Below are positions 11,292 to 31,575 of a stretch of DNA of 64,000 nucleotides, piece by piece (within the stretch, counting starts at the first letter, position 1; each line of letters begins with the position of its first letter). The notes beneath the pieces were generated by a model. That model was given only the letters and a program-made list of their open reading frames with translations, was not told the origin of the DNA and did not search any database. The position numbers and the translations under genes are program-made. The stretch comes from Pseudomonadota bacterium (GTDB lineage: Bacteria > Pseudomonadota > Gammaproteobacteria > Burkholderiales > Burkholderiaceae_C), in contig JAJZWA010000008.1 in NCBI GenBank assembly GCA_021846965.1, positions 1 to 64,000 on the forward strand, read 5' to 3'.

Positions 11292-11309
11292 GCTCGAGGG
11301 GATCCGGAC

Positions 11310-12284: not shown

Positions 12285-12310
12285 GGCGGATCGGGATGGG
12301 ACTGGAGTTC

Positions 12311-13313: not shown

Positions 13314-15134
13314 ATGAGCCAGACCCCTCCCGCCGACACCCGCAAAGTCGTCACCGGCGTGCAAAAGATGACCCCTTCCGAAGCCTTTGTCGAAACCCTG
13401 GTCGCCAACGGGGTGACGGACATCTTCGGCATCATGGGCTCGGCCTTCATGGATGCGATGGACATCTTCGCCCCGGCCGGTATCCGGCTGATTCCCGTGG
13501 TGCACGAGCAGGGCGCCGCGCACATGGCGGACGGCTATGCCCGCGTCAGCGGCCGCCACGGCGTGGTGATCGGCCAGAACGGCCCGGGCATCAGCAACTG
13601 CGTGACCGCCATCGCCGCCGCCTACTGGGCGCACAGCCCGGTGGTGATCGTCACGCCCGAGACCGGCACCATGGGCATGGGCCTGGGCGGCTTCCAGGAA
13701 GCCAACCAGCTGCCGATGTTCCAGGAGTTCACCAAGTACCAGGGCCATGTGGTGAACCCCAAGCGCATGGCCGAGTTCACCGCCCGTTGCTTTGATCGGG
13801 CGATCAGCGAAATGGGGCCGACGCAGCTGAACATTCCGCGCGACTATTTCTACGGCGAGATCCAGTGCGAGATCCCGCGCCCGATGCGCGTGGAGCGAGG
13901 CGCCGGTGGCGAGCAGAGCCTGAACGACGCCGCCGAACTGCTGGCCCAGGCCCGGTTCCCGGTGATCCTGGCCGGCGGCGGCGTGGTCATGGGCGATGCG
14001 GTCGAGGAATGCCGGCAACTGGCCGAGCGCCTGGGCGCGCCGGTGGTCACCGGCTACCTGCGCAATGACGCCTTCCCCGCCAGCCATCCGCTGTGGGCGG
14101 GCCCCTTGGGCTACCAGGGCTCCAAGGCGGCCATGAAGCTCATCGCGCAGGCCGACGTGGTGGTGGCGCTGGGCTCGCGCATGGGCCCCTTCGGCACCTT
14201 GCCGCAGCATGGCATGGACTATTGGCCCAAGAACGCCAAGATCATCCAGGTCGAGGCCGACCACACCAACCTGGGGCTGGTGAAAAAGATCACCGTGGGC
14301 ATCTGCGGCGACGCCAAGGCGGCTGCCAAGGCCATCACCCAGCGCCTGCAGGGCCGCAGCCTGGCCTGCGATGCCAGCAAGGCGCAGCGCGCCGAGACGA
14401 TCCGCTCCGAGAAGGCGGCCTGGGAGAAGGAACTCGACGGCTGGACCCACGAGCGCGACCCCTACAGCCTGGACATGATCGAGGAAGCCCGGCAGGAGAA
14501 GCCCTTCAGCGGAGGCGAGTACCTGCATCCGCGCCAGGTGCTCCGCGAGCTGGAAAAGGCCATGCCGGCGCGCGCCATGGTGTCCACCGACATCGGCAAC
14601 ATCAACTCGGTGGCCAACAGCTACCTGCGCTTCGAGGAGCCGCGCAGCTTTTTCGCGCCCATGAGTTTCGGCAACTGCGGCTACGCGCTGCCGACCATCA
14701 TCGGGGCCAAACTGGCGGCACCCGATCGCCCGGCCATCGCCTATGCCGGCGACGGCGCCTGGGGCATGAGCATGGTGGAGATCATGACCTGCGTGCGCCA
14801 CGACATCCCGGTCACCGCGGTGGTTTTCCACAATCGCCAATGGGGCGCGGAGAAGAAGAACCAGGTGGACTTCTACAACCGCCGCTTCGTGGCGGGCGAG
14901 CTGGAAAGCCAGAGTTTCGCCGGCATCGCACGCGCGATGGGCTCGGAAGCCATCGTGGTCGATCGCATCGAGGACGTGGGCGCGGCTCTCAAGCGCGCGG
15001 TGGACATGCAGATGAACCAGCGCAAGACCTGCGTGATCGAGATCATGTGCACCCGCGAACTGGGCGACCCCTTCCGGCGCGATGCCTTGAGCAAGCCGGT
15101 GCGCTTCCTCGACAAGTACAAGGACTACGTGTGA
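13314..15134 (+). CDS. xsc: Sulfoacetaldehyde acetyltransferase
   Basis: A 606-residue thiamine-diphosphate enzyme of the acetolactate synthase superfamily, closely resembling Xsc rather than acetolactate synthase. Markers are KMTPSEAFVETLVANGVTDIFGIMGSAFMDAMD, VVHEQGAAHMADGYAR with the cofactor-activating Glu, and the ThDP/Mg site YAGDGAWGMSMVEIMTCVRHDIPVTAVVFHN. Xsc converts sulfoacetaldehyde plus phosphate into acetyl phosphate and sulfite, the common cleavage step for taurine, isethionate and sulfoacetate. The start at 13314 follows CCGGAG. The stop overlaps the pta start by 4 bp (GTGA), indicating translational coupling with the enzyme that consumes its product. Confidence 0.95.
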   Translation: MSQTPPADTRKVVTGVQKMTPSEAFVETLVANGVTDIFGIMGSAFMDAMDIFAPAGIRLIPVVHEQGAAHMADGYARVSGRHGVVIGQNGPGISNCVTAIAAAYWAHSPVVIVTPETGTMGMGLGGFQEANQLPMFQEFTKYQGHVVNPKRMAEFTARCFDRAISEMGPTQLNIPRDYFYGEIQCEIPRPMRVERGAGGEQSLNDAAELLAQARFPVILAGGGVVMGDAVEECRQLAERLGAPVVTGYLRNDAFPASHPLWAGPLGYQGSKAAMKLIAQADVVVALGSRMGPFGTLPQHGMDYWPKNAKIIQVEADHTNLGLVKKITVGICGDAKAAAKAITQRLQGRSLACDASKAQRAETIRSEKAAWEKELDGWTHERDPYSLDMIEEARQEKPFSGGEYLHPRQVLRELEKAMPARAMVSTDIGNINSVANSYLRFEEPRSFFAPMSFGNCGYALPTIIGAKLAAPDRPAIAYAGDGAWGMSMVEIMTCVRHDIPVTAVVFHNRQWGAEKKNQVDFYNRRFVAGELESQSFAGIARAMGSEAIVVDRIEDVGAALKRAVDMQMNQRKTCVIEIMCTRELGDPFRRDALSKPVRFLDKYKDYV

Positions 15135-16072
15135 AGGCGCAGGAGTTCCCACGCCTGCAGCAGCTCATCGAGCGCGCGCGGCGTATCGCCGCGCGTGAGC
15201 CCACGCGCATCGGGCTGGTGCACCCTTGCGACGCGCTGGCCTTGCAGGCAGCGCGTCGCATGATCGAGCAGGGCGTCGCGCAGCCCATCCTGGTGGGCAA
15301 CCGGCGGCTCATCGAGGCCGCCGCCGAGCAGGCCGGCATGGACGCACGGGACTTCGAGATCGTGGAGACCGAAGCCGCCGCGGCCGCCGCCGCGGCGCGT
15401 GCCGTCGAGCTTGCACGCGACGGCACGCTGCGCGCGCTGATGAAGGGCTCGCTGCACACCGACGAGCTGATGTCCGCGGTGGTGCATCGGGAAAAGGGCC
15501 TGCGTTCGAGCACGCGCATCAGCCACGCCTTCGTGTTCGACCTGCCTCGCTACCACAAGCTGCTGGCGCTGGCCGACTGCGTGGTGAACATCGCGCCCGA
15601 CCTGAAATCCAAACTCGACATCATCGGCAATGCGCTGGATCTGCTGCGGCGCATCGGCGTGGAGCATCCCTCCGCCGCCGTCGTGGCCGCGGTGGAAACG
15701 GTGAACCCGGCGATCGCCGCCACCCTGGACGCGCAGGAACTCGTGCGCCTGGGGCGCGAGGGGCGCTGGGGCGACGCCGGCATCGAAGGCCCGCTGGGCT
15801 TCGACAATGCCTTTTCCGCCGAGGCGGCGCGCACCAAGCACATCGAATCCGGGCACGCCGGGGACTTCGATCTCATGATCGTGCCCGATCTCAACGCGGG
15901 CAACATGCTCTACAAGAGCTTTGTCTACGTGGGCGGCGGCGAGTGCGCCGGACTGGTGCTGGGCGCGCGCGTGCCCATCGTGCTCACCTCGCGCGCGGAT
16001 TCCCTCACCGCGCGTGTCGCCTCCGTCGCGCTGGCGACGATCGCCAGCCGCGAGCAGGCCACCGCATCCTGA
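15131..16072 (+). CDS. pta: Phosphate acetyltransferase (Xsc-coupled)
   Basis: A 313-residue protein of the phosphate acetyl/butyryltransferase family. Visible are RIGLVHPCDALALQAA near the N-terminus, ALMKGSLHTDELM, and the C-terminal FDLMIVPDLNAGNMLYKS and GGGECAGLVLGARVPIVLTSRADS motifs. It converts acetyl phosphate and CoA to acetyl-CoA, completing the Xsc route to central metabolism. It is the short form without the DRTGG or N-terminal regulatory domain of long Pta. It begins with GTG, overlapping the xsc stop as GTGA. An alanine run (EAAAAAAAARAVELA) is a local oddity. The long upstream ORF extension is the shadow frame of xsc. Confidence 0.92.
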   Translation: MKAQEFPRLQQLIERARRIAAREPTRIGLVHPCDALALQAARRMIEQGVAQPILVGNRRLIEAAAEQAGMDARDFEIVETEAAAAAAAARAVELARDGTLRALMKGSLHTDELMSAVVHREKGLRSSTRISHAFVFDLPRYHKLLALADCVVNIAPDLKSKLDIIGNALDLLRRIGVEHPSAAVVAAVETVNPAIAATLDAQELVRLGREGRWGDAGIEGPLGFDNAFSAEAARTKHIESGHAGDFDLMIVPDLNAGNMLYKSFVYVGGGECAGLVLGARVPIVLTSRADSLTARVASVALATIASREQATAS

Positions 16073-17746: not shown

Positions 17747-18276
17747 CAGTGGATCCCCAGCAGCTTGAACACCAGCAGCGAGACCTGCATGAAGGGCCCC
17801 GTGCCCAGCGGAAGCGACACGTACACCACCTTCATGAAAATCAGCGTGAACACCCCCGACAGCGCCAGCGCCGTCAGCGGCAGCCAGGCCCAGCGCCGCA
17901 TGCCGCCGATGAGCAGCAGCGCCGCCGCGAACAGCACGGTGGCGATGAAAAAACCCAGGTAGGGCATCGAGCCCACGTACAGCCCGGTCGCCGCCACGCC
18001 GACCCACACCAGGTAGGGGTGGGTCTCGGGTGGCGAGACCAGCGCCTCGTCCACCGGCTCGGGCTCCTGCGCCCCGCCGGGGGCGAAGGCCGCTCCCAGC
18101 AGGCCGATCAGCGACACACCGGCCAGCAGCACGCAGATCATCTTCGGCCACAGGTCAGGGCCCGGCATGCGGGCACTGGTGAGTATCGGCAGCCGGTCGG
18201 CCTGCAGATACAGGAACACGGCCAGCGCGAGGGTGATCAGATAAGGGATCACGCGCTTGAGCATGCTGGTGGACAT
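17746..18276 (-). CDS. tctB: Tripartite tricarboxylate transporter small permease TctB-like
   Basis: A 176-residue membrane protein with four predicted helices (VIPYLITLALAVFLYLQA; MICVLLAGVSLIGLLGAAFA; LVWVGVAATGLYVGSMPYLGFFIATVLFAAALLLIGG; LTALALSGVFTLIFMKVVYV), typical of TctB. The start at 18276 follows GGGAGAGG and gives the family length; the 47-residue extension is not membrane-like and is rejected. It is translationally coupled to tctA. Order tctC-tctB-tctA matches many Burkholderiales Tct operons. Confidence 0.9.
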   Translation of the reverse strand: MSTSMLKRVIPYLITLALAVFLYLQADRLPILTSARMPGPDLWPKMICVLLAGVSLIGLLGAAFAPGGAQEPEPVDEALVSPPETHPYLVWVGVAATGLYVGSMPYLGFFIATVLFAAALLLIGGMRRWAWLPLTALALSGVFTLIFMKVVYVSLPLGTGPFMQVSLLVFKLLGIH

Positions 18277-18337
18277 CGCCTCTCCCTGGCAATCGATCCG
18301 GTGTCCGGGCCGCGCCTCCGGCGCGGCCCGGAGCGCC

Positions 18338-19330
18338 TCACTTCGAGATCTCGATCGTGTGCTCGGCCTGACGCAGCCAGCCAGCCATGAAGGCATCGGC
18401 GTTCTGCATGGGCACATAGCTGTTCGGATCGGCGTATTGCTGGTTCAGGTAGGCCTTGAACTCGGGGGTCTGGGCGACCTTGGCCAGTGCGTCCGCCAGC
18501 TTTTTCACGCGATCCGGCGGCGTGCCGGCCTTGACCACGATGGCCCGGAACTGCGGCAGGGTCACGTCCAGCCCGAGCTGACCCGAGACCGGCACCTTCT
18601 CGAAGGCGGGAATCGGCACCGGCTTGGGATAGAAGAACAGCACGGGACGGAACTTGCCCGAATCGAAGTAGCTGCGCACGTCGCCGGTCTGCTCGTACAC
18701 GATGTCGGCGTTGCCGCCGAGGATCGAGCTGTAGCGCTGGCCGGGCTTCGCGAAGGGCACCGACTCCAGCTTGATGCCCAGCTTGTGCGCCAGGTAGCGG
18801 GTGGTGATGTCGTCGGCGCTGCCGAACCCGGTCACCGCGACGGTGAGGGTCTTCTTCTTGGCGGCGTTCTCCACGTCCTGCCAGGTCTTGAACGGGCCCT
18901 TGGCGTTGACCCAGTAACCCGAGGGCTGCTGGATCATGATGGCCAGCGGAATGATCTGGTTGAGCTTGAAGGGAGGATTCTTGCCCGATAGCAGCGCGAA
19001 GGTATCGCCGATCAGCACGGCGACGTTGTAACCGTCGGCGGGGGCGGTCAGCAGCTTGGTCATGCCCACCACGCCGTCGGCGCCGGGCACGTTGATCACG
19101 GGCAGCGAGACGCCGAGCTGCTTCTCCATGATCTTCGAGGAGGTGCGTGCCAGCAGGTCGGCCCCCCCGCCGGCGCCCCAGGGCACGATGAAGTTGATCG
19201 GATGGTCCGGATAGGCGGCGTGCGCCAGCGGCAGCGCTGCCGCCAGGCCCAGGGCGAAGGCCGCCTTGCGCAGGCGTCCCGTCCACGACGCTCGCGGCGT
19301 CCGACTGGCTTGGCTCGATGGTTGAATCAT
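18338..19330 (-). CDS. tctC: Tct transporter periplasmic receptor (Bug/TctC family)
   Basis: A 330-residue secreted binding protein. A basic N-terminus and the hydrophobic run AAFALGLAAALPLAHAAYP form the signal peptide, with likely cleavage after AHA. The mature protein begins YPDHPINFIVPWGAGGGADLLAR, the diagnostic Bug-receptor opening, and TVAVTGFGSADDITT follows as a ligand-loop region. Bug receptors bind small carboxylates and deliver them to TctAB. A good ribosome site (AGGAGA) precedes the ATG. The sauT-like ligase gene lies 93 bp upstream on the same strand, so ligand and ligase substrate are probably the same compound. Confidence 0.92.
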   Translation of the reverse strand: MIQPSSQASRTPRASWTGRLRKAAFALGLAAALPLAHAAYPDHPINFIVPWGAGGGADLLARTSSKIMEKQLGVSLPVINVPGADGVVGMTKLLTAPADGYNVAVLIGDTFALLSGKNPPFKLNQIIPLAIMIQQPSGYWVNAKGPFKTWQDVENAAKKKTLTVAVTGFGSADDITTRYLAHKLGIKLESVPFAKPGQRYSSILGGNADIVYEQTGDVRSYFDSGKFRPVLFFYPKPVPIPAFEKVPVSGQLGLDVTLPQFRAIVVKAGTPPDRVKKLADALAKVAQTPEFKAYLNQQYADPNSYVPMQNADAFMAGWLRQAEHTIEISK

Positions 19331-19423: not shown

Positions 19424-21025
19424 TCAAGCCGGGTGCAGGCGCAGCGAGCGGCGCACTGCTTCCGCCGGAAGTTCGGTGAGCTTGAGACGCTGGATCTTTC
19501 CCGACGGCCCGCGCGGGAGGTCATCGACGATATGGCAGGTCCTCGGCATTTTGTACCGCCCCAGATGCTGCAAACAGTGCTCGCGCAGTTCCTGCTCCTG
19601 CAATTGCGCCCCGGGCCGCAGCACGAGGTAGGCCTCGATGTTCTGGCCGTAGTTGCTGTCCTTCACGCCCACCGCAGCGGCTTCCAGCACCGAGGCGTGC
19701 TTGAGCAGGGCCTCGTCGATTTCGCGCGGGGCGATGTTCTCGCCGCCCTTGATGATCAATTCCTTCGCCCGCCCCGTGATGAAGTAATAACCCTCGGGGT
19801 CGCGATAGCCGAGGTCGCCGGTACGGAACCAGCCGTCGGCGGTGAAGGCCTTGGCGGTCTCCTCGGGATTCTTCAGGTAGCCGCGCATCACATTGCCGCC
19901 GCGCAGCTGGATCTCACCCACCTCGCCGTCCCCCAGCACGGCGCCATCGGCGCCGACCACGCGCGCCTCGGTGCCCGAGGGCCGGCCGATGCTGCCGATC
20001 TTGCGCAGCTCGCGTTGCACGGGGTTGCTGAACGAGGGGGCCGCGGTTTCGGTCAGGCCCATGGTCTCGATGATGTCCACGCCGAAGCGCGCCTCGAAGG
20101 CACGGTGGTGCTCGGGTGGCAGCGCCGCCGACGCGGAGCGACAGAAGCGGATGCCCGCGAGCTCGCGCGGCCCGAGCTCGGCTGGCGCGGACTGGATCAG
20201 GTAGGCGATGATGGTCGGCACCGCGTTCACCCAGGTGCAGCGCGCTCCCAGCGCGTCGCGCCAGAAGGTGGTCGCGGAGAAGCGCGGCGGCATGGCCAGC
20301 GAGCCGCCATGGGTCAGCGGTGTGACCAGATTCACCACGAGGGCATTGATGTGGTACAGGGGCAGCGGCGCCAGGCCTCGGTCGGCGGGACCCAGGCGGT
20401 GTTCGCGGCTGATGTTCACGCCATTGGCGCACAGGTTGCCATGGCTGAGCAGCACGCCCTTGGGGGTGCCGGTGGTGCCGGAGGTGTACATGAGCAGGGC
20501 CGCGTCGTCGAGCGCCGGCGCACGCGCCGGCTGGCGCGCCACGCCCCGCGTGCGCTCGAGCCAGTCGGCGCCGTCGATCACCTCGATGTATGGCGGACGC
20601 GGCATGCGCGCGGCCAGGCCGCGCAGAAGCTGCTCGTGCTCGGGCACGGTCACGACCAGGCGTGTCTCGCTGTGTTCCAGGATATAGGCCAGCTGGGTGG
20701 GCTGGGACAGCAGATTGATGGGATTGACCACCATTCCCTGGTACATCGTGGCCAGGATCAGCATCGCCGCTTCCAGCCCATTGGGCAGGAACAGCGAAAC
20801 CACGTCGCCCTGCCCCAGGCCGTGCGACGCGAAAAACGAGCCCAGCTCCGCGCACACGCGCTGCAACTCGGCGAAGTCGAGTTCGCGTCCGCTGTCCGTG
20901 GCCACGAAGTAGGTCGCCCCGGGATCGCGCAGGGCGTTCAGGTCCACCAGGGCCTGGATGCTGCAAGGCTCGCCGCCCTCGGCGGGCAGCAGCACGGGTG
21001 CGAAGGGACTCTCGGGACGGTTCAT
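19424..21025 (-). CDS. sauT: Acyl-CoA synthetase, probable sulfoacetate-CoA ligase
   Basis: A 533-residue AMP-forming acyl-CoA synthetase. ANL motifs are intact: LLMYTSGTTGTPKGVLLSHGN (A3), MGLTETAA (A5), GWFRTGDLGYRDPEGY (A7) and PRGPSGKIQRLKL with the catalytic Lys (A10). The nearby acylating dehydrogenase (SauS-like), xsc and pta match the sulfoacetate pathway described in Cupriavidus necator, where SauT makes sulfoacetyl-CoA. Substrate assignment rests on that context rather than on active-site residues, so another small carboxylate remains possible. The start at 21025 is preferred; the 32-residue extension contains no family sequence. It likely heads the operon sauT-tctCBA. Confidence 0.72.
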   Translation of the reverse strand: MNRPESPFAPVLLPAEGGEPCSIQALVDLNALRDPGATYFVATDSGRELDFAELQRVCAELGSFFASHGLGQGDVVSLFLPNGLEAAMLILATMYQGMVVNPINLLSQPTQLAYILEHSETRLVVTVPEHEQLLRGLAARMPRPPYIEVIDGADWLERTRGVARQPARAPALDDAALLMYTSGTTGTPKGVLLSHGNLCANGVNISREHRLGPADRGLAPLPLYHINALVVNLVTPLTHGGSLAMPPRFSATTFWRDALGARCTWVNAVPTIIAYLIQSAPAELGPRELAGIRFCRSASAALPPEHHRAFEARFGVDIIETMGLTETAAPSFSNPVQRELRKIGSIGRPSGTEARVVGADGAVLGDGEVGEIQLRGGNVMRGYLKNPEETAKAFTADGWFRTGDLGYRDPEGYYFITGRAKELIIKGGENIAPREIDEALLKHASVLEAAAVGVKDSNYGQNIEAYLVLRPGAQLQEQELREHCLQHLGRYKMPRTCHIVDDLPRGPSGKIQRLKLTELPAEAVRRSLRLHPA

Positions 21026-21103
21026 GGAAAGTGGGGTCTCGGACACATCGCGTGATCGCCCGCGAGGGGCGTGTCGGCAATTTAGGGAAAAAATGCCCAC
21101 GAA

Positions 21104-21210
21104 CAGTCCCGTTTTCCACATATTCGAAATATCGCCCTCGGCTTGATGTTATTTTTCATTTTTCGGGACGATTGCAGTCCGTTTTCCGCTTGTAGAACTG
21201 GATACAGTTC
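21104..21210. promoter_or_regulatory. Candidate operators in the sauT/IclR divergent spacer
   Basis: The 265-bp spacer is markedly AT-richer than its surroundings. It contains a perfect dyad GAACTG-GATA-CAGTTC (21195-21210). It also has two near-identical direct repeats, CAGTCCCGTTTTCC (21104-21117) and CAGTCCGTTTTCC (21175-21187), about 71 bp (seven helical turns) apart. A GTCCCGTTTT decamer from the first is also found in the xsc leader (13262-13271). These are plausible binding sites for the divergent IclR regulator. Confidence 0.5.
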
Positions 21211-21290
21211 AGTCCGTGGGCCCCGCGCCTGCCTTGCGCTTTCGTTTTCCGCCGCCCGAACCACCGCCAGCCGTGTCCAGCCGAACAGCC

Positions 21291-22103
21291 ATGACCTCGA
21301 ACCAGTCCAACGCCGCGGCGGTGCGCGCCTTTCGCGTGCTCGAGCTGCTCAGCACCGCCGAATCCATGGGCCTGATGCAGATCTCCGAAGGCCTGCAGCT
21401 GCCCAAGCAGACCGTGCATCGCATCCTCAAGACCCTGAGTGCGGCCCAGCTCGTGGTGCGCAATCTGGACGGCCAGGGCTACGAATGCGGACCGCGGGTG
21501 CGCCAGATGAGCGTCTCGGCACTGATGCACACGGGCCCCGCGACGGCACGCCGCGCGGTGCTGCGCAAGCTCGGCGAGAGCCTGGGCGAGACGGTGAATC
21601 TGACGGCGCTGGACGGCGACCTCATCGTCTACCTGGACCGCGTCGAGACGGACTCCCCGCTGCGCATGCACCTGCAGCCCGGCTCGCACGTCCCCCTGCA
21701 CTGCACATCCAGCGGCAAGTTGCTGCTCAGCCTGCAGCCCGCCGCCATGCGCAACCGCATCGTCGACTCGCTGCCCCTGCGCAAGATGACCGAGCACACG
21801 ATCACCGATCCGGCGCGCCTGCGCCAGGAACTCAGCGATACGCGCCGACGGCGCATCGGCATGAACGACCAGGAGTTCATCCAGGGCATGGTGTCCATCG
21901 CCGTGCCGGTCATGCGCGACGCCTACAGGGCATGGGGCGCGGTCGCCGTGCAGGCGCCGCTGGCCCGTTACGACATCGAGGCGCTGCTGCGTCATGTGCC
22001 GGCCATGCGCGAGGCGGCGGACGCCATTGCCGCGATGGTGCCGCCCTCGTCGCGCAAGTCGCGTTCCTCCGCGCAGGAGGAACTGGCCGACGCAAGCGCC
22101 TGA
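21291..22103 (+). CDS. IclR-family regulator of the sulfoacetate genes
   Basis: A 270-residue IclR regulator. The winged helix-turn-helix spans about residues 8-70 (MQISEGLQLPKQTVHRILKTLSAAQLV). The effector domain has YLDRVETDSPLRMHLQPGSHVPLHCTSSGKLLLS and FIQGMVSIAVPV. It is parallel to the IclR protein next to xsc over much of its length, including the YLDRVE and VPLHC/VPVHC motifs, so the two are likely paralogues. It precedes sauS by about 70 bp on the same strand and diverges from sauT-tctCBA, placing it as their local regulator, functionally equivalent to SauR. The ATG at 21291 lacks a clear ribosome site; an upstream GTG at 21216 is possible. Confidence 0.85.
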   Translation: MTSNQSNAAAVRAFRVLELLSTAESMGLMQISEGLQLPKQTVHRILKTLSAAQLVVRNLDGQGYECGPRVRQMSVSALMHTGPATARRAVLRKLGESLGETVNLTALDGDLIVYLDRVETDSPLRMHLQPGSHVPLHCTSSGKLLLSLQPAAMRNRIVDSLPLRKMTEHTITDPARLRQELSDTRRRRIGMNDQEFIQGMVSIAVPVMRDAYRAWGAVAVQAPLARYDIEALLRHVPAMREAADAIAAMVPPSSRKSRSSAQEELADASA

Positions 22104-22172
22104 AGGCGTGCACGGCCCCCTTTGACCGCGGCGCCCGCGCGCCCCCTTCACCCCAGCATCGAGGACTGCAGC

Positions 22173-23606
22173 ATGGACAGGACGATTTCCCCACCCCCCG
22201 GGCTCGACGACGTGCGTCGCCAGGTGGCCGACTGTGTAGCACGCGCGCGCGCCGCGCAACGCGTGTACGAAGACTTCAGCCAGGAACAGGTCGACGAGGT
22301 GGTGCTGGCCGCCGGCTGGGCCATCATGGAACCATCGCGCAACCGGGCGCTGGCCGAGCTCGCAGTGGCCGACACCGGCCTGGGCAATGTCGAGGACAAG
22401 GTGATCAAGAATCACCGCAAGACCCTGGGGCTGCTGCGCGACCTGCGCGGCAGGAAATCCGTGGGAGTGATCTCCGAGGACAAGGCCAAGGGGGTGATCG
22501 AGATCGCCCGCCCGGTGGGCGTGGTCGGCGCCGTGACACCGTCGACCAACCCCGGTGCCACCCCGGCCAACAAGATCATCAATGCCCTCAAGGGGCGCAA
22601 CGCCGTGATCCTGGCCCCCTCGCCCAAGGGCTACGGCACCAGCACCCTGCTGCTGCGCTACATCGCCGAGGAACTCGACCGCGTGGGAGCGCCGCGCGAC
22701 CTGGTGCAACAACTGCCGGCGCCCGTGAACAAGGCGGCCACGCAGGAATTGATGCGCCAGGTGGACCTGGTGGTGGTGACCGGCTCGCAGAACAACGTGC
22801 GCGCCGCCTACGAGAGCGGAACCCCGGCCATCGGCGTGGGCGCAGGCAACGTGGCCGTGATCGTCGACGAAACCGCCGAACTGGAGCAGGCTGCGGACAG
22901 GATCCGGCGCTCCAAGACCTTCGACAACGCCACCAGCTGCTCCTCCGAGAACAGCGTGGTGATCGTCGAAGCGGTGTACGAACGCATGCTCGAAGCCCTG
23001 CGCGCGCAGGGCGGCGTGCTGCTGGACGCGGCCCAGAAGCAGCGCCTGCAGGACACCATGTGGCCGAACGGCAAGCTGTCGCCGGCGGTCACCGCCAAGT
23101 CCGCACCGGTGATCGCCGCACTGGCCGGGCTGCAGGGCGAGGCCTTCGAGCGTGCGCGCTTCCTGATGGTCGAGGAAACGGGCACCGGCGAGCAATATCC
23201 CTTCTCGGGCGAGAAGCTTTCCCCGGTGCTGACGGTGTATCGGGCCCGCGACTTCGAGCATGCCCAGGACATCGTGCGCGCCATCTACGCCTACGAGGGA
23301 GCGGGCCACTCCATCGGGCTGCACTCGCAGCGCCCCGAGCGCGCGCTGCGCATGGGTCTGTCCATGCCGGCCTGCCGCATCATCGTCAACCAGGCCCATT
23401 GCTTCGCCACCGGCGGCAGCTTCGACAACGGGCTGCCCTTCTCGCTGTCCATGGGTTGCGGTACCTGGGGACGCAACAGCATTTCCGATAATCTGAACTA
23501 CAGGCACTATCTGAACATCACGCGCATCGCCACGCCCTGCGCGCCGGACGAGCCGAGCATGGACGACATGTTCGGCGAGTACCGCAGGCGACATGGCCTG
23601 CGCTGA
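22173..23606 (+). CDS. sauS: CoA-acylating sulfoacetaldehyde dehydrogenase-like enzyme
   Basis: A 477-residue CoA-acylating aldehyde dehydrogenase of the EutE/SauS type. Markers are GVVGAVTPSTNPGATPANK, the nucleotide-loop-like PAIGVGAGNVAVIVDE, and the catalytic cysteine in FDNATSCSSEN. In sulfoacetate catabolism SauS reduces sulfoacetyl-CoA with NAD(P)H to sulfoacetaldehyde, the Xsc substrate. The combination with an AMP-forming ligase, xsc and pta makes this assignment strong by context. The start MDRTISPPP at 22173 has GAGG upstream and is preferred to a TTG 17 codons earlier. It is cotranscribed with the IclR gene before it and possibly with the MocR gene 54 bp after it. Confidence 0.82.
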   Translation: MDRTISPPPGLDDVRRQVADCVARARAAQRVYEDFSQEQVDEVVLAAGWAIMEPSRNRALAELAVADTGLGNVEDKVIKNHRKTLGLLRDLRGRKSVGVISEDKAKGVIEIARPVGVVGAVTPSTNPGATPANKIINALKGRNAVILAPSPKGYGTSTLLLRYIAEELDRVGAPRDLVQQLPAPVNKAATQELMRQVDLVVVTGSQNNVRAAYESGTPAIGVGAGNVAVIVDETAELEQAADRIRRSKTFDNATSCSSENSVVIVEAVYERMLEALRAQGGVLLDAAQKQRLQDTMWPNGKLSPAVTAKSAPVIAALAGLQGEAFERARFLMVEETGTGEQYPFSGEKLSPVLTVYRARDFEHAQDIVRAIYAYEGAGHSIGLHSQRPERALRMGLSMPACRIIVNQAHCFATGGSFDNGLPFSLSMGCGTWGRNSISDNLNYRHYLNITRIATPCAPDEPSMDDMFGEYRRRHGLR

Positions 23607-23660: not shown

Positions 23661-25166
23661 ATGAACCATCGCACCCATACCCTGCTCTGGAAACAATTGC
23701 TGCAGCGAAGCGCGCGCAGCAACCTGAGCCTGCAGGGACAGATTCGCGAAATGCTGGTCTCGGCGATCCTGGACGGCCTGATCGAGCCCGGGACGCCGGT
23801 GCCCTCCGGGCGCGAGCTGGCCGAGCAACTGGGGGTGGCGCGCAACACCGTGGTGCTGGCCTACAAGCAGCTGGCCGACGAGGGCTACCTGCTGTCGCGC
23901 CAGCGCAGCGGCCATTTCGTGAATGCGCAGTTCGTGGCCGGACTGCGCGCGCGCGACCCCGATGCCGCGGGGGGCGGCGTGCCCCGGGCACCCATCGACT
24001 GGGAAGGCCGCATGCGCCTGCAGCCGACGCGCCAGCGCAGCATCCACAAGCCGGCCGACTGGCAGAAATTCCCCTACCCCTTCCTGTACGGACAGTTCGA
24101 CGCGTCCTTGTTCCCCACCGCCCATTGGCGGGAATGCTGCCTCAAGGCGCTGTCCGTGCTGGACATCCGCGACTGGGCGCCGGACCACATCAACCGCGAC
24201 GACGAAACCCTGGTGCAGCAGATCCGCACGCGCGTGCTTCCGCGACGCGGGGTGTGGGCGCAGGCCGAGGAGGTCGTGGTCACCGTGGGGGCACAGCATG
24301 CGCTGTACATGGTGGCCGATCTGCTGCTGGGCGAGCACAGCACCCTGGCGCTGGAGAACCCCGGCTATCCCGACGCGCGCAACATCTTCGCCGCGCGCAC
24401 CTCGCATCTGCTGCCCATCGACGTCGACGCCGACGGCCTGCCGGTGGACCAGCGCCTGGCACAGGCCGACTACCTCTACGTCACGCCCAGCCACCAATGC
24501 CCCACGGGAGTGACCATGCCGCTGGAGCGCCGGCGCCAGCTGCTGCAATGGGCCGACCACAACGATCTGATCATCATCGAGGATGACTTCGAGAGCGAGA
24601 ACCGCTACGGCGACGAACCCATTCCCGCGCTCAAGAGCCTGGACCACAGCCATCGCGTGATCTATATCGGCAGCCTGTCGAAGAGCTGGGCGCCGGGGCT
24701 GCGGCTGGGCTACATCGTCGCCCCCGCCCCCCTGGCCCGCGAGTTGCGCGCGCTGCGCCGCCTGATGCTGCGCCACCCCTCGGCCTTCGTGCAGCGCGCC
24801 TTCGCGCTGTTCCTGTCCCTGGGGCACCACGACGCTCAGCTGCGGCGTATCGCCATGACCCAGCAGCAGCGCAGCCAGGCGGTTCTCGAATCCCTGTCCC
24901 GGCATGCGCCGCAGTGCGTGGTCACTCCGGTCATCGGCGGGGGCTCGTGCTGGCTGCGCCTGCCCGAGGGAATCGACACCGGCGAGCTGTCCCGCCGCGC
25001 CGCCGCCGCCGGGGTCCTGATCGAGACCGGCGACGTGTTCTTTTTCGAGCAGCCGGCGCCGGGCCCCTTCATGCGCCTGGGCTGGCAATCCATCCCCGAC
25101 AAGGCCATCGAGCCCGGCATCGCCCTGCTCGGCGCGCTGATCCGCGAACTGCAGACCCTCGCCTGA
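23661..25166 (+). CDS. MocR-type (GntR/aminotransferase) regulator, TauR-like
   Basis: A 501-residue MocR regulator. Residues about 20-95 form a GntR winged helix (LIEPGTPVPSGRELAEQLGVARNTVVLAYKQLADEGYL). The rest is an aminotransferase fold I domain with LALENPGYPDARN, YVTPSHQCPTGVTMPLERR and the PLP-lysine region YIGSLSKSWAPGLRLGYIV. MocR proteins sense PLP adducts of amino compounds; TauR, the taurine-utilisation activator of Rhodobacter, belongs here, as do PdxR and GabR. The neighbouring TauABC-like transporter and the xsc hub favour a TauR-like role. A 13-bp inverted repeat with CTGGACC cores upstream of the FAD gene is a candidate target. Confidence 0.85.
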   Translation: MNHRTHTLLWKQLLQRSARSNLSLQGQIREMLVSAILDGLIEPGTPVPSGRELAEQLGVARNTVVLAYKQLADEGYLLSRQRSGHFVNAQFVAGLRARDPDAAGGGVPRAPIDWEGRMRLQPTRQRSIHKPADWQKFPYPFLYGQFDASLFPTAHWRECCLKALSVLDIRDWAPDHINRDDETLVQQIRTRVLPRRGVWAQAEEVVVTVGAQHALYMVADLLLGEHSTLALENPGYPDARNIFAARTSHLLPIDVDADGLPVDQRLAQADYLYVTPSHQCPTGVTMPLERRRQLLQWADHNDLIIIEDDFESENRYGDEPIPALKSLDHSHRVIYIGSLSKSWAPGLRLGYIVAPAPLARELRALRRLMLRHPSAFVQRAFALFLSLGHHDAQLRRIAMTQQQRSQAVLESLSRHAPQCVVTPVIGGGSCWLRLPEGIDTGELSRRAAAAGVLIETGDVFFFEQPAPGPFMRLGWQSIPDKAIEPGIALLGALIRELQTLA

Positions 25167-25195: not shown

Positions 25196-25933
25196 TCAAT
25201 GGGCCAGGATGCCCATGGCCTGCTTCTTCAGCTCCAGGAACCGGGGCTCGAAAGTGGTCTCGGGCCTTCGCGGGCGTTCGAGCTCGATGGGCAGATCCAG
25301 CGCCACCCGGCCCGGCCGTGCGGACAGCACCACCAGGCGCGTGCCCAGGAAGATCGCCTCGTCGATGTCGTGGGTGATGAACACGATGGTGCACTGCAGC
25401 TTCTCCCACAGCGAGGTGAGGAAGGACTGCATGGAGGCGCGGGTCTGCGCGTCCAGCGCGCCGAAGGGTTCGTCCATCAGCAGGACCTTGGGCTTCATCA
25501 CCAGCGCGCGGGCGATCGCCACGCGTTGCTGCATGCCTCCCGACAGTTCGTACGGCTTGTGGCGCGCGAAGCCCTCCAGCCCGATGATGCGCAGGATCTC
25601 CGAGCTTTCGCGCCGGCGCTGCGCGCGCGCCATGCCCTGCAGCTCGAGCCCGAACTCGATGTTGTCCTGCACGTTCAGCCAGGGGTACAGACCCGCCTGC
25701 TGAAACACCACCACGCGGTCCGCCCCCGGCCGGCTCTTGACTTCGCCGTCGATGTAGATGGCCCCGCGCGATGGCGTGGTGAGCCCGGCCAGCAGGTGCA
25801 ACAGCGTGGTCTTGCCGCAGCCCGAAGATCCAAGCACGGTGACGAATTCTCCACCCTGGAACTGCAGGTTGATGTTCTCCAGCGCGGTCGTCGCGCCGAA
25901 GGTCTTGTACAGGGAATCGATGACGATGTTCAC
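25196..25933 (-). CDS. Taurine/sulfonate-type ABC transporter ATP-binding protein
   Basis: A 245-residue ABC ATPase of the nitrate/sulfonate/taurine group (TauB/SsuB). Walker A GSSGCGKTT is near residue 35, the Q-loop is VVFQQAGLYPWLNV, the signature LSGGMQQR, Walker B VLLMDEPFGALD and the H-loop FITHDIDEA. It energises uptake by the permease at 27072 and binding protein at 25986. It is the last gene of the four-gene minus-strand operon NTF2-permease-SBP-ATPase, with a 52-bp gap to the SBP gene, and is convergent with the MocR gene. The substrate is inferred from context. Confidence 0.9.
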   Translation of the reverse strand: MNIVIDSLYKTFGATTALENINLQFQGGEFVTVLGSSGCGKTTLLHLLAGLTTPSRGAIYIDGEVKSRPGADRVVVFQQAGLYPWLNVQDNIEFGLELQGMARAQRRRESSEILRIIGLEGFARHKPYELSGGMQQRVAIARALVMKPKVLLMDEPFGALDAQTRASMQSFLTSLWEKLQCTIVFITHDIDEAIFLGTRLVVLSARPGRVALDLPIELERPRRPETTFEPRFLELKKQAMGILAH

Positions 25934-25985: not shown

Positions 25986-26996
25986 TCAATGCCCGGAATA
26001 CTGCGGGGCGACGTTGTCGGCGAAGCTCGCCGGCACCTGCTGGATGCGCCCGATCTGCTGCAGCACCTTGGCCGTGTTCACCAGGGTCATGTAGGTGGCC
26101 GAGGTCTGCACCCCCGCTCCCTGCCCCATGCCCTTGGGAGAACTCTGGTCCGCCCCCGAGAACAGCTCGTAGCCGGCCAGCTCCTTGCGCGCGACGGGCA
26201 CCGTCACCCCGGTCTCGCGGGCCATGTCGGCAATGGCCTTCTCGGGGTCCTTGCGGGTCATCTGGTAACCCTGGTCCATGGCCGCGACGAAGCCGCGCGC
26301 CAGCGCCGGATGCGCAGCCGCCCACTTCGAGTCGGCGATGCACACGTTGTAGCTCGACGCCGTGCGCGGCAGGTCGCCGTCGGTCTTGAGCACCTGGCCT
26401 CCAGCGGCCTGCAGCGCGCTGAACACGGGGTCCCACACGATGGCCGCGTCGATCGCACCCGTGACCCAGGACGTGCGCATCTGCGGCGGGGCCATGTTGA
26501 TCTGGGTGACCGAGTCATAGGGAACGTGGGCCTCCTGCAGGAAGGTGGCCAGTTCGAAGGAGGACTGCGAGCCGGCGACGATGGCGATCTTCTTGCCCTT
26601 CAGGCCGGCCACCGTGGTGATGTGGCTGCCGGGCTTGACCACGATGCCGGCGGCCGTGGTGTAGCGCTCCTGGTTGTACACGATGGTCATCGGCAGGCCT
26701 TGCGCGATCGCGGTGACCAGCGGCGGAATGCCCAGGCCGCACATGAAGGTCAGGCTGTTGGAGGCCAGCGCGCTCATCGCAGCCGGCCCGGAGCTGAACA
26801 ACTTGTACTGCACCTTGGCGTGCATGTTCTTCTCGAACAGGTGCTGGGCCATCGACACCATGTAGGGGTCGGCGCCGTTGTTCTCGTAGCCGATGATCAC
26901 CTCGGGCTGGTCGGCGGCGCGGGCCGCCACGGGAACCAGGCCTGCCGTCAGGGTGCAGGCGGCGAGCGCGCCGCGCATCCAGGATCGCTTGTTCAT
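25986..26996 (-). CDS. Taurine-like ABC transporter substrate-binding protein
   Basis: A 336-residue periplasmic binding protein of the TauA/SsuA/NMT1-like family. The signal peptide is RSWMRGALAACTLTAGLVPVAARAA. The mature protein starts EVIIGYENNGADPYMV. Family features are GLKGKKIAIVAGSQSSFELATFL and WVTGAIDAAIVWDPVFSAL, the usual TauA-type ligand-pocket strand. It captures alkanesulfonates, taurine or similar amines. Together with xsc in the region and the MocR gene next door, taurine or a structural analogue is the most economical ligand. A TCTCTCC-rich region upstream reads as GGAGAGA on the coding strand, a good ribosome site. Confidence 0.88.
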   Translation of the reverse strand: MNKRSWMRGALAACTLTAGLVPVAARAADQPEVIIGYENNGADPYMVSMAQHLFEKNMHAKVQYKLFSSGPAAMSALASNSLTFMCGLGIPPLVTAIAQGLPMTIVYNQERYTTAAGIVVKPGSHITTVAGLKGKKIAIVAGSQSSFELATFLQEAHVPYDSVTQINMAPPQMRTSWVTGAIDAAIVWDPVFSALQAAGGQVLKTDGDLPRTASSYNVCIADSKWAAAHPALARGFVAAMDQGYQMTRKDPEKAIADMARETGVTVPVARKELAGYELFSGADQSSPKGMGQGAGVQTSATYMTLVNTAKVLQQIGRIQQVPASFADNVAPQYSGH

Positions 26997-27071: not shown

Positions 27072-27923
27072 TCAGTTGTGGCCACGCCAGGGCACGACCA
27101 GGCTCTCGATCTTGCGGATCACCAGTTCCATGGCGTAGCCGATGATCCCGATGATCACGATGCCGACAATGACAATGCTCACCTGCAGGGCCTGTCCGGC
27201 GAACTGCACCAGCCAGCCCAGCCCGCTGCTGGCGGCGATCAGCTCGGCCGCGACCAGGCAGGTCCAGGCCACGCCGATGCCCACGCGCATGGCGGTGAAG
27301 ATCTCCGGCAGCGCGGACGGCAGGATCACCTTGCGGAAGATCTGCGCATTGCTCGCGCCCAGGGTGCGCGCCACCGAAACCCGCAACGGCGGCGTGCTCT
27401 TCACCCCCGAGATGGTGCCGATGATGATCACCGGAATCGTGCCCACCAGGATCAGGATGGCCTTGGGAAGCTCACCGATTCCGAACCACACGACCAGCAG
27501 GGGGATATAGGCCAGCGGCGGCACCGGACGCACGAACTGCAGCAGCGGATCGACGATGTCGAACACCACCTTGTTGCGCGACATCAGCAGGCCCACCGGA
27601 ACCCCGATGACGATGGCTCCGACAAAGCCCACCAGGATGCGAAAACAGCTGATGGCGATGTCGGCACTCAGGGACTGCCCGCCATAACCCTGGCGCACGA
27701 TGGCCACGAAGGCCCGCCACACCGCCACCGGCGAAGGCAGCGCGAAGGCCGGGAACACGCCCGCCACGGCCACCAGTTGCCACACCACCAGCGCGCCCAG
27801 CAGCACGAGCACGGTGATCCATTGGGGAGCCAGCCGCAGGCGCAACCTGCGCGCGGGCCGGGTGGAGGGAGGGGGCGCGGAAACGTTCATGTTCTGGCCT
27901 CGCTGTTCGGGAATCGCGCTCAT
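27072..27923 (-). CDS. Taurine-like ABC transporter permease
   Basis: A 283-residue inner-membrane permease of the TauC/SsuC group. After a proline- and arginine-rich cytoplasmic tail come about six helices (WITVLVLLGALVVWQLVAVAGVF onward). The coupling loop is visible as VARTLGASNAQIFRKVILPSALPEIFTAMRVGIGVAW, characteristic for the family. The start at 27923 is fixed by a strong GGAGGT seven bases upstream, removing the 101-residue ORF extension. The NTF2-like gene ends 14 bp upstream, so the two are cotranscribed. Confidence 0.9.
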   Translation of the reverse strand: MSAIPEQRGQNMNVSAPPPSTRPARRLRLRLAPQWITVLVLLGALVVWQLVAVAGVFPAFALPSPVAVWRAFVAIVRQGYGGQSLSADIAISCFRILVGFVGAIVIGVPVGLLMSRNKVVFDIVDPLLQFVRPVPPLAYIPLLVVWFGIGELPKAILILVGTIPVIIIGTISGVKSTPPLRVSVARTLGASNAQIFRKVILPSALPEIFTAMRVGIGVAWTCLVAAELIAASSGLGWLVQFAGQALQVSIVIVGIVIIGIIGYAMELVIRKIESLVVPWRGHN

Positions 27924-27937
27924 CGAAGGTACCTCCG

Positions 27938-28315
27938 TCAGCGAGCCGGGATACGTTCCTTGCGGAACGCGTTCTTCACCGCGATGCGGCCGTCGGCGAA
28001 GGTGAACACGTCGACCATGCGGGCCTCGATGCGCAGGCCGTCGGCGCGGGTGCCGCAAAAGGTCGACTCGGTGACGCCGCGGTCGCCGCACACGAAATGC
28101 ACCGGGTCCAGCCAGGCGGCGTCGGGAAAGGTCTTCCAGGCCAGCTCGAAACCGGCACGGACCTCCTCGCGTCCGTGGAAACTGCGTCCGAGTACCTCCG
28201 GGCCGCCCACCGCGTGGAATATGCAATGATCGCTCATGAAACTCATCAAACGCTCGATGTCATGGGCGTTCCACGCGTCTGAAAATGCCTGGAGAGTATC
28301 TACGGTTGGATTCAT
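27938..28315 (-). CDS. NTF2-like (SnoaL-fold) small protein
   Basis: A 125-residue protein of the nuclear-transport-factor-2/ketosteroid-isomerase fold: MNPTVDTLQAFSDAWNAHDIERLMSFMSDHC opening, then VLGRSFHGREEVRAGFELAWKTFPD and ARMVDVFTFADGRI. NTF2-fold proteins serve as small enzymes, ligand pockets or enzyme subunits. It heads the transporter operon and is divergent from a FAD oxidoreductase gene. I recall the small TauX partner of the flavoprotein TauY in taurine dehydrogenase as a protein of this size, but I am not certain it shares this fold, so a TauX-like role is inference. Otherwise function is unknown. Confidence 0.8.
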   Translation of the reverse strand: MNPTVDTLQAFSDAWNAHDIERLMSFMSDHCIFHAVGGPEVLGRSFHGREEVRAGFELAWKTFPDAAWLDPVHFVCGDRGVTESTFCGTRADGLRIEARMVDVFTFADGRIAVKNAFRKERIPAR

Positions 28316-28696
28316 GTTCGACAGCCTGACCGGTTTTCGATGTCTGCGGTTTTTTCAATATAGTGAGGGCCCGACTCGCCTGTGTAGATCCAGTTCGTCG
28401 CTTTTGATTGGTCCAGATTCCTGAAGCGGCCTCCGCTCGGCGATGCCTCCGGATTCGGCCCTGAAATCAAGGGTTTTCACTTATCTGGAAAACCCGCAGG
28501 AATTGCGGGCCCGCGCATGCCGCAGCACGATGGTGCGGCGCGCAAATCGGCACGAGATTATTCGGAAGGCCTGGCCCGGAATCTGGACCATCATTTTGTT
28601 CCGATCTGGCTCCATGGCTGCGCGATATCGCCCCCTATCATGGTTCGTAAACCCCAGGCCTCCTGGCGTTTCCTTGAATCCTCGGGCACGAATCCC
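28316..28696. promoter_or_regulatory. Divergent control region with 13-bp inverted repeat
   Basis: This 381-bp spacer drives the NTF2-transporter operon leftward and the FAD oxidoreductase gene rightward. It holds a perfect 13-bp inverted repeat: TGGTCCAGATTCC (28409-28421) and GGAATCTGGACCA (28578-28590). The CTGGACC core resembles the CTGGAC-type repeats I recall for Rhodobacter TauR. A partial match ATCTGG recurs near 28605. The neighbouring MocR protein is the likely binder. No small ORF with a ribosome site was seen. Confidence 0.6.
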
Positions 28697-30124
28697 ATGA
28701 ATGTCTCCGCCGAAGTCGAAACACCTTCCCCGCTGCACCCTTACGACCCCCGCTACGATCCCCTGGTCCACGCCACGCCGGGTCATGGCCGCGCCTATGC
28801 GCCCACCTACTGGGTGGGGACGGCCGGCACGCCTCCGCAGGACGATGGTCCCGTGCAAGGCGACCTCGACGTGGACGTCGCGGTGGTCGGCTCGGGCTTC
28901 ACGGGACTGTCCACCGCCTTGTTCCTGGCGCGCGAGCACGGAATCCGCGCAACCGTGCTGGAGGCCAACCAGACCGCCTGGGGCTGCACCAGCCGCAACG
29001 GCGGCCAGGGCCAGAACGCCAGCGGCCGGCTGTACCGCTCGCAGTGGATCGCGCGCTGGGGACGCGAGGTCGCCCTGCGCCTGGATCGCGAGATTCGCGA
29101 GGGTTTCGACACCTTCAAGTCGCTGGTGGCCGAATTCCCCGAATGCGAGCCCCAGCCCGGCGGGCACCTGTACATCGCCCACCGCGACAAGAAAATGGAC
29201 TTCCTGCGCAATGAGGCGCAGGTGATGCGCGAGGTCTTCGGCTACGACACCCGCATGCTCAGCCGCGAGCAGGTGCACGAGCGCTACGTGCGCGACGCGG
29301 AGTGCAGCGGCGCACTGCACGAACCCGACGGCATCGGCGTGCATCCGCTCAAGCTGGCCTTCGCCTACCAGCGCAGCGCGCGCGCCATGGGCGTGCGCAT
29401 CCATACCTCCAGCCCGGTCACCCGCTTCGAGGGCTCGAAGGGGCGCTATGTGCTGCACACGCCGGGCGGCATCGTGCGCGCACGCGCCGTGGCCTTCGCC
29501 ACGGGCGGCTATACCAGCAATGCCCTGCACCCACGCCTGCGCAACAAGATCCTGCCCATCCTGTCCAACTCGCTGGTCACGCGCGTGCTGCGGGACGACG
29601 AGATCGAGGCCACGGGGTTTCGCACCCACGAGGTGATCACCGACACCCGCACGCTGCGCTTCTATTACCGCCTGCTGCCCGACCGCCGTGTGCAGATCGG
29701 CAGCCGAAGCTCCATCACCGGAGCCGACGCACCGCATCCCCGGCACCTGCAGCTGTTGATCGACGGCCTGCATCGCAAGTTCCCCGCCCTGCGCGGAATC
29801 GACATCGACTATTCCTGGTGGGGATGGGTCGATGTGAGCCACGACATGATGCCGCGCATCACCCAGCCCGACGCCGCCGAACAGGTGTTCTACGCGCTGG
29901 GCTACGGCGGCAACGGGGTGTCCTTCTCGTCCCACGCCGGGCGCCGCATGGCGCAGCGCGTGGCCGGCAAGGCTGCGCCCGTGCTGGACCTGCCGATCTA
30001 CTCGGGCGAGCTCGAATACCCCAACGCCTTCGACCTCGTGCGCTCGCCCCTGCTCGCGCCCATGCGCCGCCTGGGCCAGCGCATGCTGTATCGCTGGTAC
30101 TTCCTGCGCGACGAACGTCTCTGA
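28697..30124 (+). CDS. FAD-dependent amine oxidoreductase, TauY-like candidate
   Basis: A 475-residue DAO-family flavoprotein. The N-terminal FAD motif is VDVAVVGSGFTGLSTALFLA at about residues 55-75. CTSRNGGQGQNASGRL follows, the glycine-rich loop common to PuuB/TauY-type amine oxidases and dehydrogenases. The C-terminal FAD segment is EQVFYALGYGGNGVSFSSHAGRRMA. It would oxidise a primary or secondary amine to an aldehyde. With the xsc hub, a taurine-type transporter and a TauR-like MocR protein nearby, taurine dehydrogenation to sulfoacetaldehyde is a reasonable hypothesis. The start at 28697 begins the conserved tail; an ATG at 28640 is an alternative. Neither has a strong ribosome site. 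Confidence 0.8.
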   Translation: MNVSAEVETPSPLHPYDPRYDPLVHATPGHGRAYAPTYWVGTAGTPPQDDGPVQGDLDVDVAVVGSGFTGLSTALFLAREHGIRATVLEANQTAWGCTSRNGGQGQNASGRLYRSQWIARWGREVALRLDREIREGFDTFKSLVAEFPECEPQPGGHLYIAHRDKKMDFLRNEAQVMREVFGYDTRMLSREQVHERYVRDAECSGALHEPDGIGVHPLKLAFAYQRSARAMGVRIHTSSPVTRFEGSKGRYVLHTPGGIVRARAVAFATGGYTSNALHPRLRNKILPILSNSLVTRVLRDDEIEATGFRTHEVITDTRTLRFYYRLLPDRRVQIGSRSSITGADAPHPRHLQLLIDGLHRKFPALRGIDIDYSWWGWVDVSHDMMPRITQPDAAEQVFYALGYGGNGVSFSSHAGRRMAQRVAGKAAPVLDLPIYSGELEYPNAFDLVRSPLLAPMRRLGQRMLYRWYFLRDERL

Positions 30125-30231: not shown

Positions 30232-31575
30232 TCAGGCGCGACGCGCATCCTCGCGGGACACGCCCCGCATGAGCATCACGGAAACCAGGCTGATCAGCGC
30301 CACCAGGACCATGTAGCCGGCCACCAGCCAGGGCTTGCCATGGCCCACGCCGATCAGCGCGGTGGCGATCAGCGGCGTCAGGCCGCTGGCGAAGATGCCG
30401 GAGAACTGGTAGGCGAAGGAGACGCCCGTGTAGCGCACATGGGCATCGAACTGGCTGGCGAACAGCGAGGATTCGGGGCCGTAGACCATCGGATAGCCCA
30501 GGGAGAAGGGCACGATCAGCCCCAGCAGCACGACCCCGTAGTTGTGGGCGCCCCAGGTGTGCATGACCCAGAAGGACAGCACCGAGGCCACGGCGATGAA
30601 CACGGCGCCGATGGCGAAGATGCGCCGCAGGCCGAAGCGATCCGCCGCCCAGCCCGACAGCACGATGAAGGGCAGCATGAGGGCCGAGGAGATGATCACC
30701 GCGTTGAGCGCTTCGCCGCGGCTCAGGCCCAGCGAGTGGGTGATGTAGTAGATGCTGAACACCCCGAAGGTGTTGAAACAGGCACCCTCGACATAGCGCG
30801 CGCCCAGGGTCAGCAGGACCTCGCGCTTGAAGTCGCGGAACATCACCGCCACCGGCACCGGCACGATGCGCTTTTCCCGCTGGGCGCGCTCGAAGTCCGG
30901 GGTCTCCATGATCTTCAGGCGCACGTACAGGCCGATGGCCACGAGCAGGCCGCTCATGAAAAAGGCCACGCGCCAGCCCCAGGAGATGAAGGAGGAGTCC
31001 GGCAGCAGGTTCAGCAGTGCCACCACCGCGGCACTGCTCATCAGGCCCAGGGGCACCCCCAGCTGCGGCCAGCTTCCGTACAGCGCCCGCTTGCCGGGGC
31101 TGGCGTGCTCGATGGTCATGAGCACCGCGCCGCCCCACTCGCCGCCGATGCCGATGCCTTGCAGCACGCGCAACACCAGCAGCATCAGGGGCGCGGCCAC
31201 CCCCACCGCCGCGGTGGTCGGCAGCGCGCCGATCAGGAAGGTCGACCCCCCCATGATCAGCATGGTCAGCACCAGGATGGTCTTGCGCCCGATGCGGTCC
31301 CCGAAATGGCCGAAGATGATGCCGCCGATGGGACGCGAGAGGAAGCCCACCGCGAAGGTGGTGTAGGCCGCGATGGTGCCGATCACCGGCGACAGATTGG
31401 GGAAGAACAGACGATTGAGCACCAGCGGCGTGAGCACGCCGTAGAGGAAGAAGTCATACCACTCGATCGTGGTTCCCAGCGTGCTGGCGAACACGATCAG
31501 GGCCTTGCTGGTGCTCGGCGCGGCGCCCGGAATTGCCCCGGATTCGGGCATGGCCCGTGATGGTGATGCGCTCAT
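30232..31575 (-). CDS. MHS-family MFS symporter
   Basis: A 447-residue major facilitator of the metabolite:H+ symporter family. TIEWYDFFLYGVL, FFPNLSPVIGTIAAYTTFAVGFLSRPIGG and the loop 2-3 signature GHFGDRIGRKTILV are characteristic, as is VLRVLQGIGIGGEWGGAVLM. Twelve membrane helices are predicted. Relatives carry betaine, proline, shikimate, dicarboxylates or aromatic acids; the MFS exporter/importer SauU of C. necator is a functional precedent for an MFS in sulfoacetate clusters, though this MHS type is not clearly its orthologue. It has a strong ribosome site (GAGGAGA). It is transcribed alone and is convergent with the FAD gene. Confidence 0.88.
   Translation of the reverse strand: MSASPSRAMPESGAIPGAAPSTSKALIVFASTLGTTIEWYDFFLYGVLTPLVLNRLFFPNLSPVIGTIAAYTTFAVGFLSRPIGGIIFGHFGDRIGRKTILVLTMLIMGGSTFLIGALPTTAAVGVAAPLMLLVLRVLQGIGIGGEWGGAVLMTIEHASPGKRALYGSWPQLGVPLGLMSSAAVVALLNLLPDSSFISWGWRVAFFMSGLLVAIGLYVRLKIMETPDFERAQREKRIVPVPVAVMFRDFKREVLLTLGARYVEGACFNTFGVFSIYYITHSLGLSRGEALNAVIISSALMLPFIVLSGWAADRFGLRRIFAIGAVFIAVASVLSFWVMHTWGAHNYGVVLLGLIVPFSLGYPMVYGPESSLFASQFDAHVRYTGVSFAYQFSGIFASGLTPLIATALIGVGHGKPWLVAGYMVLVALISLVSVMLMRGVSREDARRA

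Follow-up and report, generated by a model that had tools for sequence, protein, structure and literature searches.

Taurine dehydrogenase TauXY was reportedly first described in Paracoccus by Brueggemann in 2004. The enzyme is named in many genome surveys, and in the literature searched the roles of its two subunits rest on a proposal together with a single knockout of the large subunit. In S. meliloti, in-frame deletion of tauY (SMb21529) resulted in no growth on taurine (PMC4254191), while the names small and large subunit for TauX and TauY have been given as a proposal (PMC12239276).

The locus examined here lies in a window of 64,000 nucleotides, the whole stretch of DNA that was analysed. 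It shares with the S. meliloti and Paracoccus systems an orthologous DAO flavoprotein and NTF2 protein, a TauR-type MocR regulator, and Xsc and Pta in the same cluster (the Paracoccus order being MocR, TRAP transporter, NTF2, DAO, xsc, exporter, pta). By contrast, tauX and tauY are adjacent and co-directional in both of those systems but diverge in the window, the TauA of the window is strongly diverged from that of S. meliloti, and SauS/SauT-type genes, which are present in the window, do not appear among the genes given for the stretches of S. meliloti and Paracoccus that were covered. In Caballeronia sp. NK8, TauXY, SauS, ligase, IclR and xsc occur together as in the window. The IclR, SauS and ligase set is named after the SauR-SauS-SauT sulfoacetate module of Cupriavidus necator. 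That module likewise combines an IclR regulator, an acylating sulfoacetaldehyde dehydrogenase and an AMP-forming ligase in one cluster, as does Caballeronia beside TauXY, whereas the ligase in the window is adjoined by a Tct-type transporter (TctA, TctC). Glycine oxidase ThiO and the sarcosine oxidase beta subunit also resemble TauY in their DAO fold and in oxidising amines, but they are only about 20% identical to it, and we know of no NTF2 partner for either. Taken together, the comparison and the evidence below indicate that the pair very probably encodes a TauXY taurine dehydrogenase within a proposed taurine route under TauR control.

The TauX/TauY pair and its linkage

The two genes are positioned as follows:

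27938..28315, minus strand: tauX, NTF2/SnoaL-fold protein of 125 amino acids, proposed small subunit of taurine dehydrogenase
28697..30124, plus strand: tauY, FAD flavoprotein of the DAO family, 475 amino acids, predicted catalytic subunit

The first-pass annotation had proposed a TauX/TauY pair from sequence alone, and the sizes and positions on which it relied hold. The tauY frame opens with ATG at 28697. A longer reading of 535 amino acids from 28517 is available, but 475 amino acids represents the better start because the longer one begins ahead of a conserved −10-like box at 28636. Both frames are kept in eight sister genomes with 82-96% identity, indicating that tauX and tauY are real genes.

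The flavoprotein matches the Pfam DAO family (E 8.9e-62) and is 61% identical to S. meliloti TauY. In a maximum-likelihood tree it forms one clade (support 100/100) with the TauYs of S. meliloti and Paracoccus and a further 24 proteobacterial sequences, carried on a long stem and separated from seven DAO proteins used as outsiders, namely six plasmid proteins and a paralogue from the same genome. This paralogue, the one clear full-length relative of TauY in the genome, is 30% identical to it. In a sampled ranking of plasmid records, identity to the window flavoprotein lies between 68% and 58% for a leading group that includes the S. meliloti and Paracoccus genes, and drops to about 34% after it. 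The large subunit is thus orthologous to the genetically tested TauY. Structure prediction (mean pLDDT 76) places it close to glycine and sarcosine oxidases, which have the DAO fold. No NCBIfam equivalog model bears the name TauX or TauY, and the assignment of both proteins therefore rests on orthology.

The small protein matches Pfam SnoaL_2 (E 2.8e-20) and is orthologous to the NTF2 genes located directly upstream of tauY in S. meliloti (46% identity) and Paracoccus (40%), so that the proposed identification of the pair is borne out by clustering for both members. The NTF2 fold of TauX, about which the earlier reading had been unsure, is confirmed: its sequence family and its position in the genome both point to it, and so does a high-confidence AF2 model (pLDDT 90.4) matching the ketosteroid-isomerase and SnoaL folds.

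Linkage was assessed in 26 genome-collection loci possessing a TauX of at least 64% identity, with two left out because they lie at contig ends (L029, L033). TauY is next to TauX in 23 of the 24 evaluable loci, two of the 23 being strains of one species, Vibrio penaeicida. The exception (L035) carries a transposase-like ORF upstream of tauX, and in what is apparently the same genome (G020) tauX and tauY are found on different contigs; the missing neighbour in L035 is probably the result of rearrangement. Across 41 genomes, both genes were present in 10, neither in 28, and three were discordant (agreement 38/41, Fisher p 6e-7), with 25 of these genomes belonging to one genus and hence not independent. 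One genome (G034) has TauX and no TauY at the threshold used. A TauX/TauY distance correlation of 0.62 was set aside as evidence, since shared ancestry was uncontrolled.

Neighbouring genes and the predicted taurine route

The genes surrounding the pair are:

27072..27923, minus strand: tauC-like ABC permease, separated from tauX by 14 bp (TauC as top NCBIfam match, 222 bits, cut-off 342)
25986..26996, minus strand: tauA/ssuA-like substrate-binding protein (NCBIfam SsuA_fam 139 bits and TauA 119 bits, both below cut-off)
25196..25933, minus strand: tauB-like ABC ATPase (best NCBIfam match TauB, 265 bits, cut-off 357)
23661..25166, plus strand: MocR-family regulator, TauR candidate by identity to other MocR genes
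22122..23606, plus strand: sauS, acylating sulfoacetaldehyde dehydrogenase (equivalog NF047625, 793 bits, above the cut-off of 600)
21216..22103, plus strand: IclR-family regulator, SauR-like (55% identity to the IclR gene that accompanies Caballeronia sauS)
19424..21121, minus strand: AMP-forming acyl-CoA ligase, SauT-like (Pfam AMP-binding; 53% identical to the AMP-binding gene adjoining Caballeronia sauS)
15131..16072, plus strand: pta, phosphate acetyltransferase (PF01515 over cut-off), overlapping the end of xsc
13362..15134, plus strand: xsc, sulfoacetaldehyde acetyltransferase (equivalog TIGR03457, 1057 bits, above the cut-off of 676)

A taurine-type transporter had been predicted to adjoin the pair, and it does, in the order tauX-tauC-tauA-tauB on the minus strand, which probably constitutes one operon. 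The MocR gene that had been placed next to the pair is present, but it is located beyond tauCAB rather than as an immediate neighbour. It is 44% identical to the MocR protein upstream of S. meliloti tauA and 46% identical to the one beside Acinetobacter tauXY. The context of taurine dissimilation (TauR, transporter, Xsc and Pta) is thus found within the window, the transporter scoring below equivalog cut-offs.

The first-pass claim that a Tpa-type aminotransferase is lacking holds genome-wide as far as it was tested. No dedicated Tpa was found in a survey of the class-III aminotransferases made without a Tpa-specific model in this 94% complete genome. The six class-III enzymes were assigned otherwise, as two ArgD, BioA, HemL, a stretch resembling HemL within a very long frame, and an omega-aminotransferase of the AptA type. 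None of the six resides in the tau cluster; the AptA-type enzyme is on another contig and could in principle deaminate taurine. With TauABC-like genes, MocR, Xsc, Pta and SauS in the window and no dedicated Tpa, the locus is predicted to encode a route from taurine via sulfoacetaldehyde to acetyl phosphate and sulfite. In this route, TauABC would import taurine, and TauY, with its FAD and DAO fold, would oxidise the taurine amine to an imine that would hydrolyse to sulfoacetaldehyde and ammonium, its electrons going to an acceptor that probably lies at the cytochrome c level, with TauX as its putative small subunit. Xsc and Pta would then convert sulfoacetaldehyde to sulfite and acetyl-CoA, while SauS and the ligase would connect sulfoacetaldehyde and sulfoacetate.

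Thiomonas is a genus known for inorganic sulfur oxidation, and for Thiomonas-like bacteria the locus predicts every step needed to turn an organic sulfonate into sulfite. A literature search combining Thiomonas and taurine returned nothing relevant in titles, abstracts or matches.

Several further genes flank the cluster. Tripartite tricarboxylate-type transporter genes (TctA, TctC; 16193-19330, minus strand) adjoin the SauT-like ligase and may represent a sulfoacetate importer. An MFS metabolite/H+ symporter gene (30232-31575, minus strand) adjoins tauY and is on the same side of tauY in sister genomes; the MFS gene belonging to the sau cluster of Caballeronia did not match it. Beside IclR, xsc and pta lie two genes, one CobT-like and one CobS-like (9552-12494, minus strand). 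This CobT is the single one in the genome and CobN was not detected in the genome, so the CobT/CobS-like pair is probably not a B12 cobaltochelatase. Eleven further loci from beta- and gammaproteobacteria (L002, L032, L037, L039-L045, L050) likewise have such a pair (in one case CobT only) close to xsc, and a literature search found no paper joining xsc, cobT and taurine.

Divergent layout and the putative intergenic control region

The enzyme is known but little studied, and the only unusual trait of the pair is its back-to-back arrangement, with tauX and tauY diverging from a gap of 381 bp. The window shows this arrangement, as do all eight Thiomonas-like loci having enough sequence. The source of the window is itself called Thiomonas-like solely from its nearest loci (Thiomonas sp. 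FB-6, a Thiomonas MAG and Proteobacteria MAGs). By contrast, the pair is co-directional with tauX before tauY in 15 other genome-collection loci containing both genes, and in Caballeronia tauY precedes tauX. The pair is a further representative of a known enzyme family, and its divergent layout is specific to this lineage.

The gap contains the following elements:

28356..28361, minus strand: −10-like box TATATT of a putative tauX promoter, in the invariant block TTTTTTCAATATAGT of a nine-genome alignment
28387..28416, minus strand: candidate TauR-like operator for tauX, CTGGACCAATCAAAAGCGACGAACTGGATC, a direct repeat with an N16 spacer, largely conserved in nine genomes
28583..28612, plus strand: candidate TauR-like operator for tauY, CTGGACCATCATTTTGTTCCGATCTGGCTC, mirror image of the tauX operator with equal spacing
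28636..28641, plus strand: −10-like box TATCAT of a putative tauY promoter, in the invariant block CTATCAT of the nine-genome alignment

Alignment of the gap from the nine genomes revealed two conserved blocks, each a direct repeat CTGGAYC-N16-CTGG positioned 23-25 bp from its conserved −10-like hexamer. The extended form CTGGAYC-N16-CTGG-N-TC has four occurrences in the whole genome of 3.66 Mb, and the tauX/tauY gap accounts for two of these. Comparable repeats with 15- or 16-bp spacers precede tau genes of S. meliloti, Paracoccus, a Zoogloeaceae MAG and Crenobacter. The control region shared by the two genes had been anticipated as one; the single gap stands, but it harbors a mirrored pair of operator-like repeats together with a pair of promoter-like boxes.

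As published, the TauR site consists of CTGGACYTAA in direct repeat (PMC5320631). The gap operators match the CTGGAC of this consensus and leave its TAA unmatched, and for this reason regulation by TauR through the gap repeats is something that we infer, although it is likely. A plain scan for the CTGGACYNAA consensus performed no better than chance, and when the repeat is relaxed, it matches at other places in the window too; within the operator scans, the informative signal is only the spaced repeat with its conservation. Under this regulation, the TauR-type MocR activator would switch on tauX-C-A-B and tauY via the two mirrored gap operators.

The role of TauX and the substrate of TauY

The separation of tauX from tauY bears on whether TauX is a subunit at all. 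It may instead be a separate small enzyme or binding protein, acting for example on sulfoacetaldehyde or the imine, a reading under which TauY can still be a taurine dehydrogenase. Most NTF2/SnoaL relatives whose function is known are enzymes or binding proteins, and in the Thiomonas-like lineage tauX is split from tauY and grouped with transporter genes. Moreover, relatives of TauX occur without TauY. An Azoarcus KH32C plasmid carries one (L004 9977-10381, 59% identity) with no TauY match nearby and an IS3 transposase close by, while Shewanella NTF2 proteins 44% identical to TauX (L047 8001-8369, L048 7983-8369) are encoded directly upstream of an aldehyde dehydrogenase gene with no TauY in the stretch. 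These cases indicate that the NTF2 family of TauX is not strictly tied to TauY, and they sustain the alternative in which TauX is no strict subunit. However, almost every locus has tauX and tauY side by side, the two genes co-occur from genome to genome, and the proposed naming in the literature is that of small and large subunits; we thus regard a TauX acting apart from TauY as unlikely. A related idea, that divergent units with separate operators let the cell set TauX and TauY independently because TauX does more than serve as a fixed-ratio subunit (for instance by carrying the TauY product or acting on it as an enzyme), seems to us quite unlikely. The role of TauX becomes testable at this locus, where the pair is diverged, the TauX fold is cleanly assigned and tauX and tauY are naturally apart.

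With TauXY as a taurine dehydrogenase remaining the preferred reading, its substrate could nevertheless have shifted to a similar amine, for instance N-methyltaurine, homotaurine or some other aminosulfonate, leaving taurine as a minor one. The transporter has diverged, with a TauA-like protein that is 27% identical to S. meliloti TauA and scores higher against SsuA_fam than against TauA, all scores being below cut-off, and the window TauY sits on another branch than the alphaproteobacterial TauYs within the same large clade. By contrast, Xsc and SauS centre the cluster on sulfoacetaldehyde, which fits taurine or N-methyltaurine but not homotaurine, and the TauR-type regulator and operator repeats resemble a taurine regulon, making such a drift very unlikely.

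Finally, that the pair consists of an unrelated NTF2 protein and a different DAO enzyme is extremely improbable, because the best NCBIfam matches of the flavoprotein, aminophosphonate oxidoreductase (140 bits, cut-off 633) and pipecolate oxidase (117 bits, cut-off 600), are far below cut-off, and the tree and the identity gap place it firmly with TauY.
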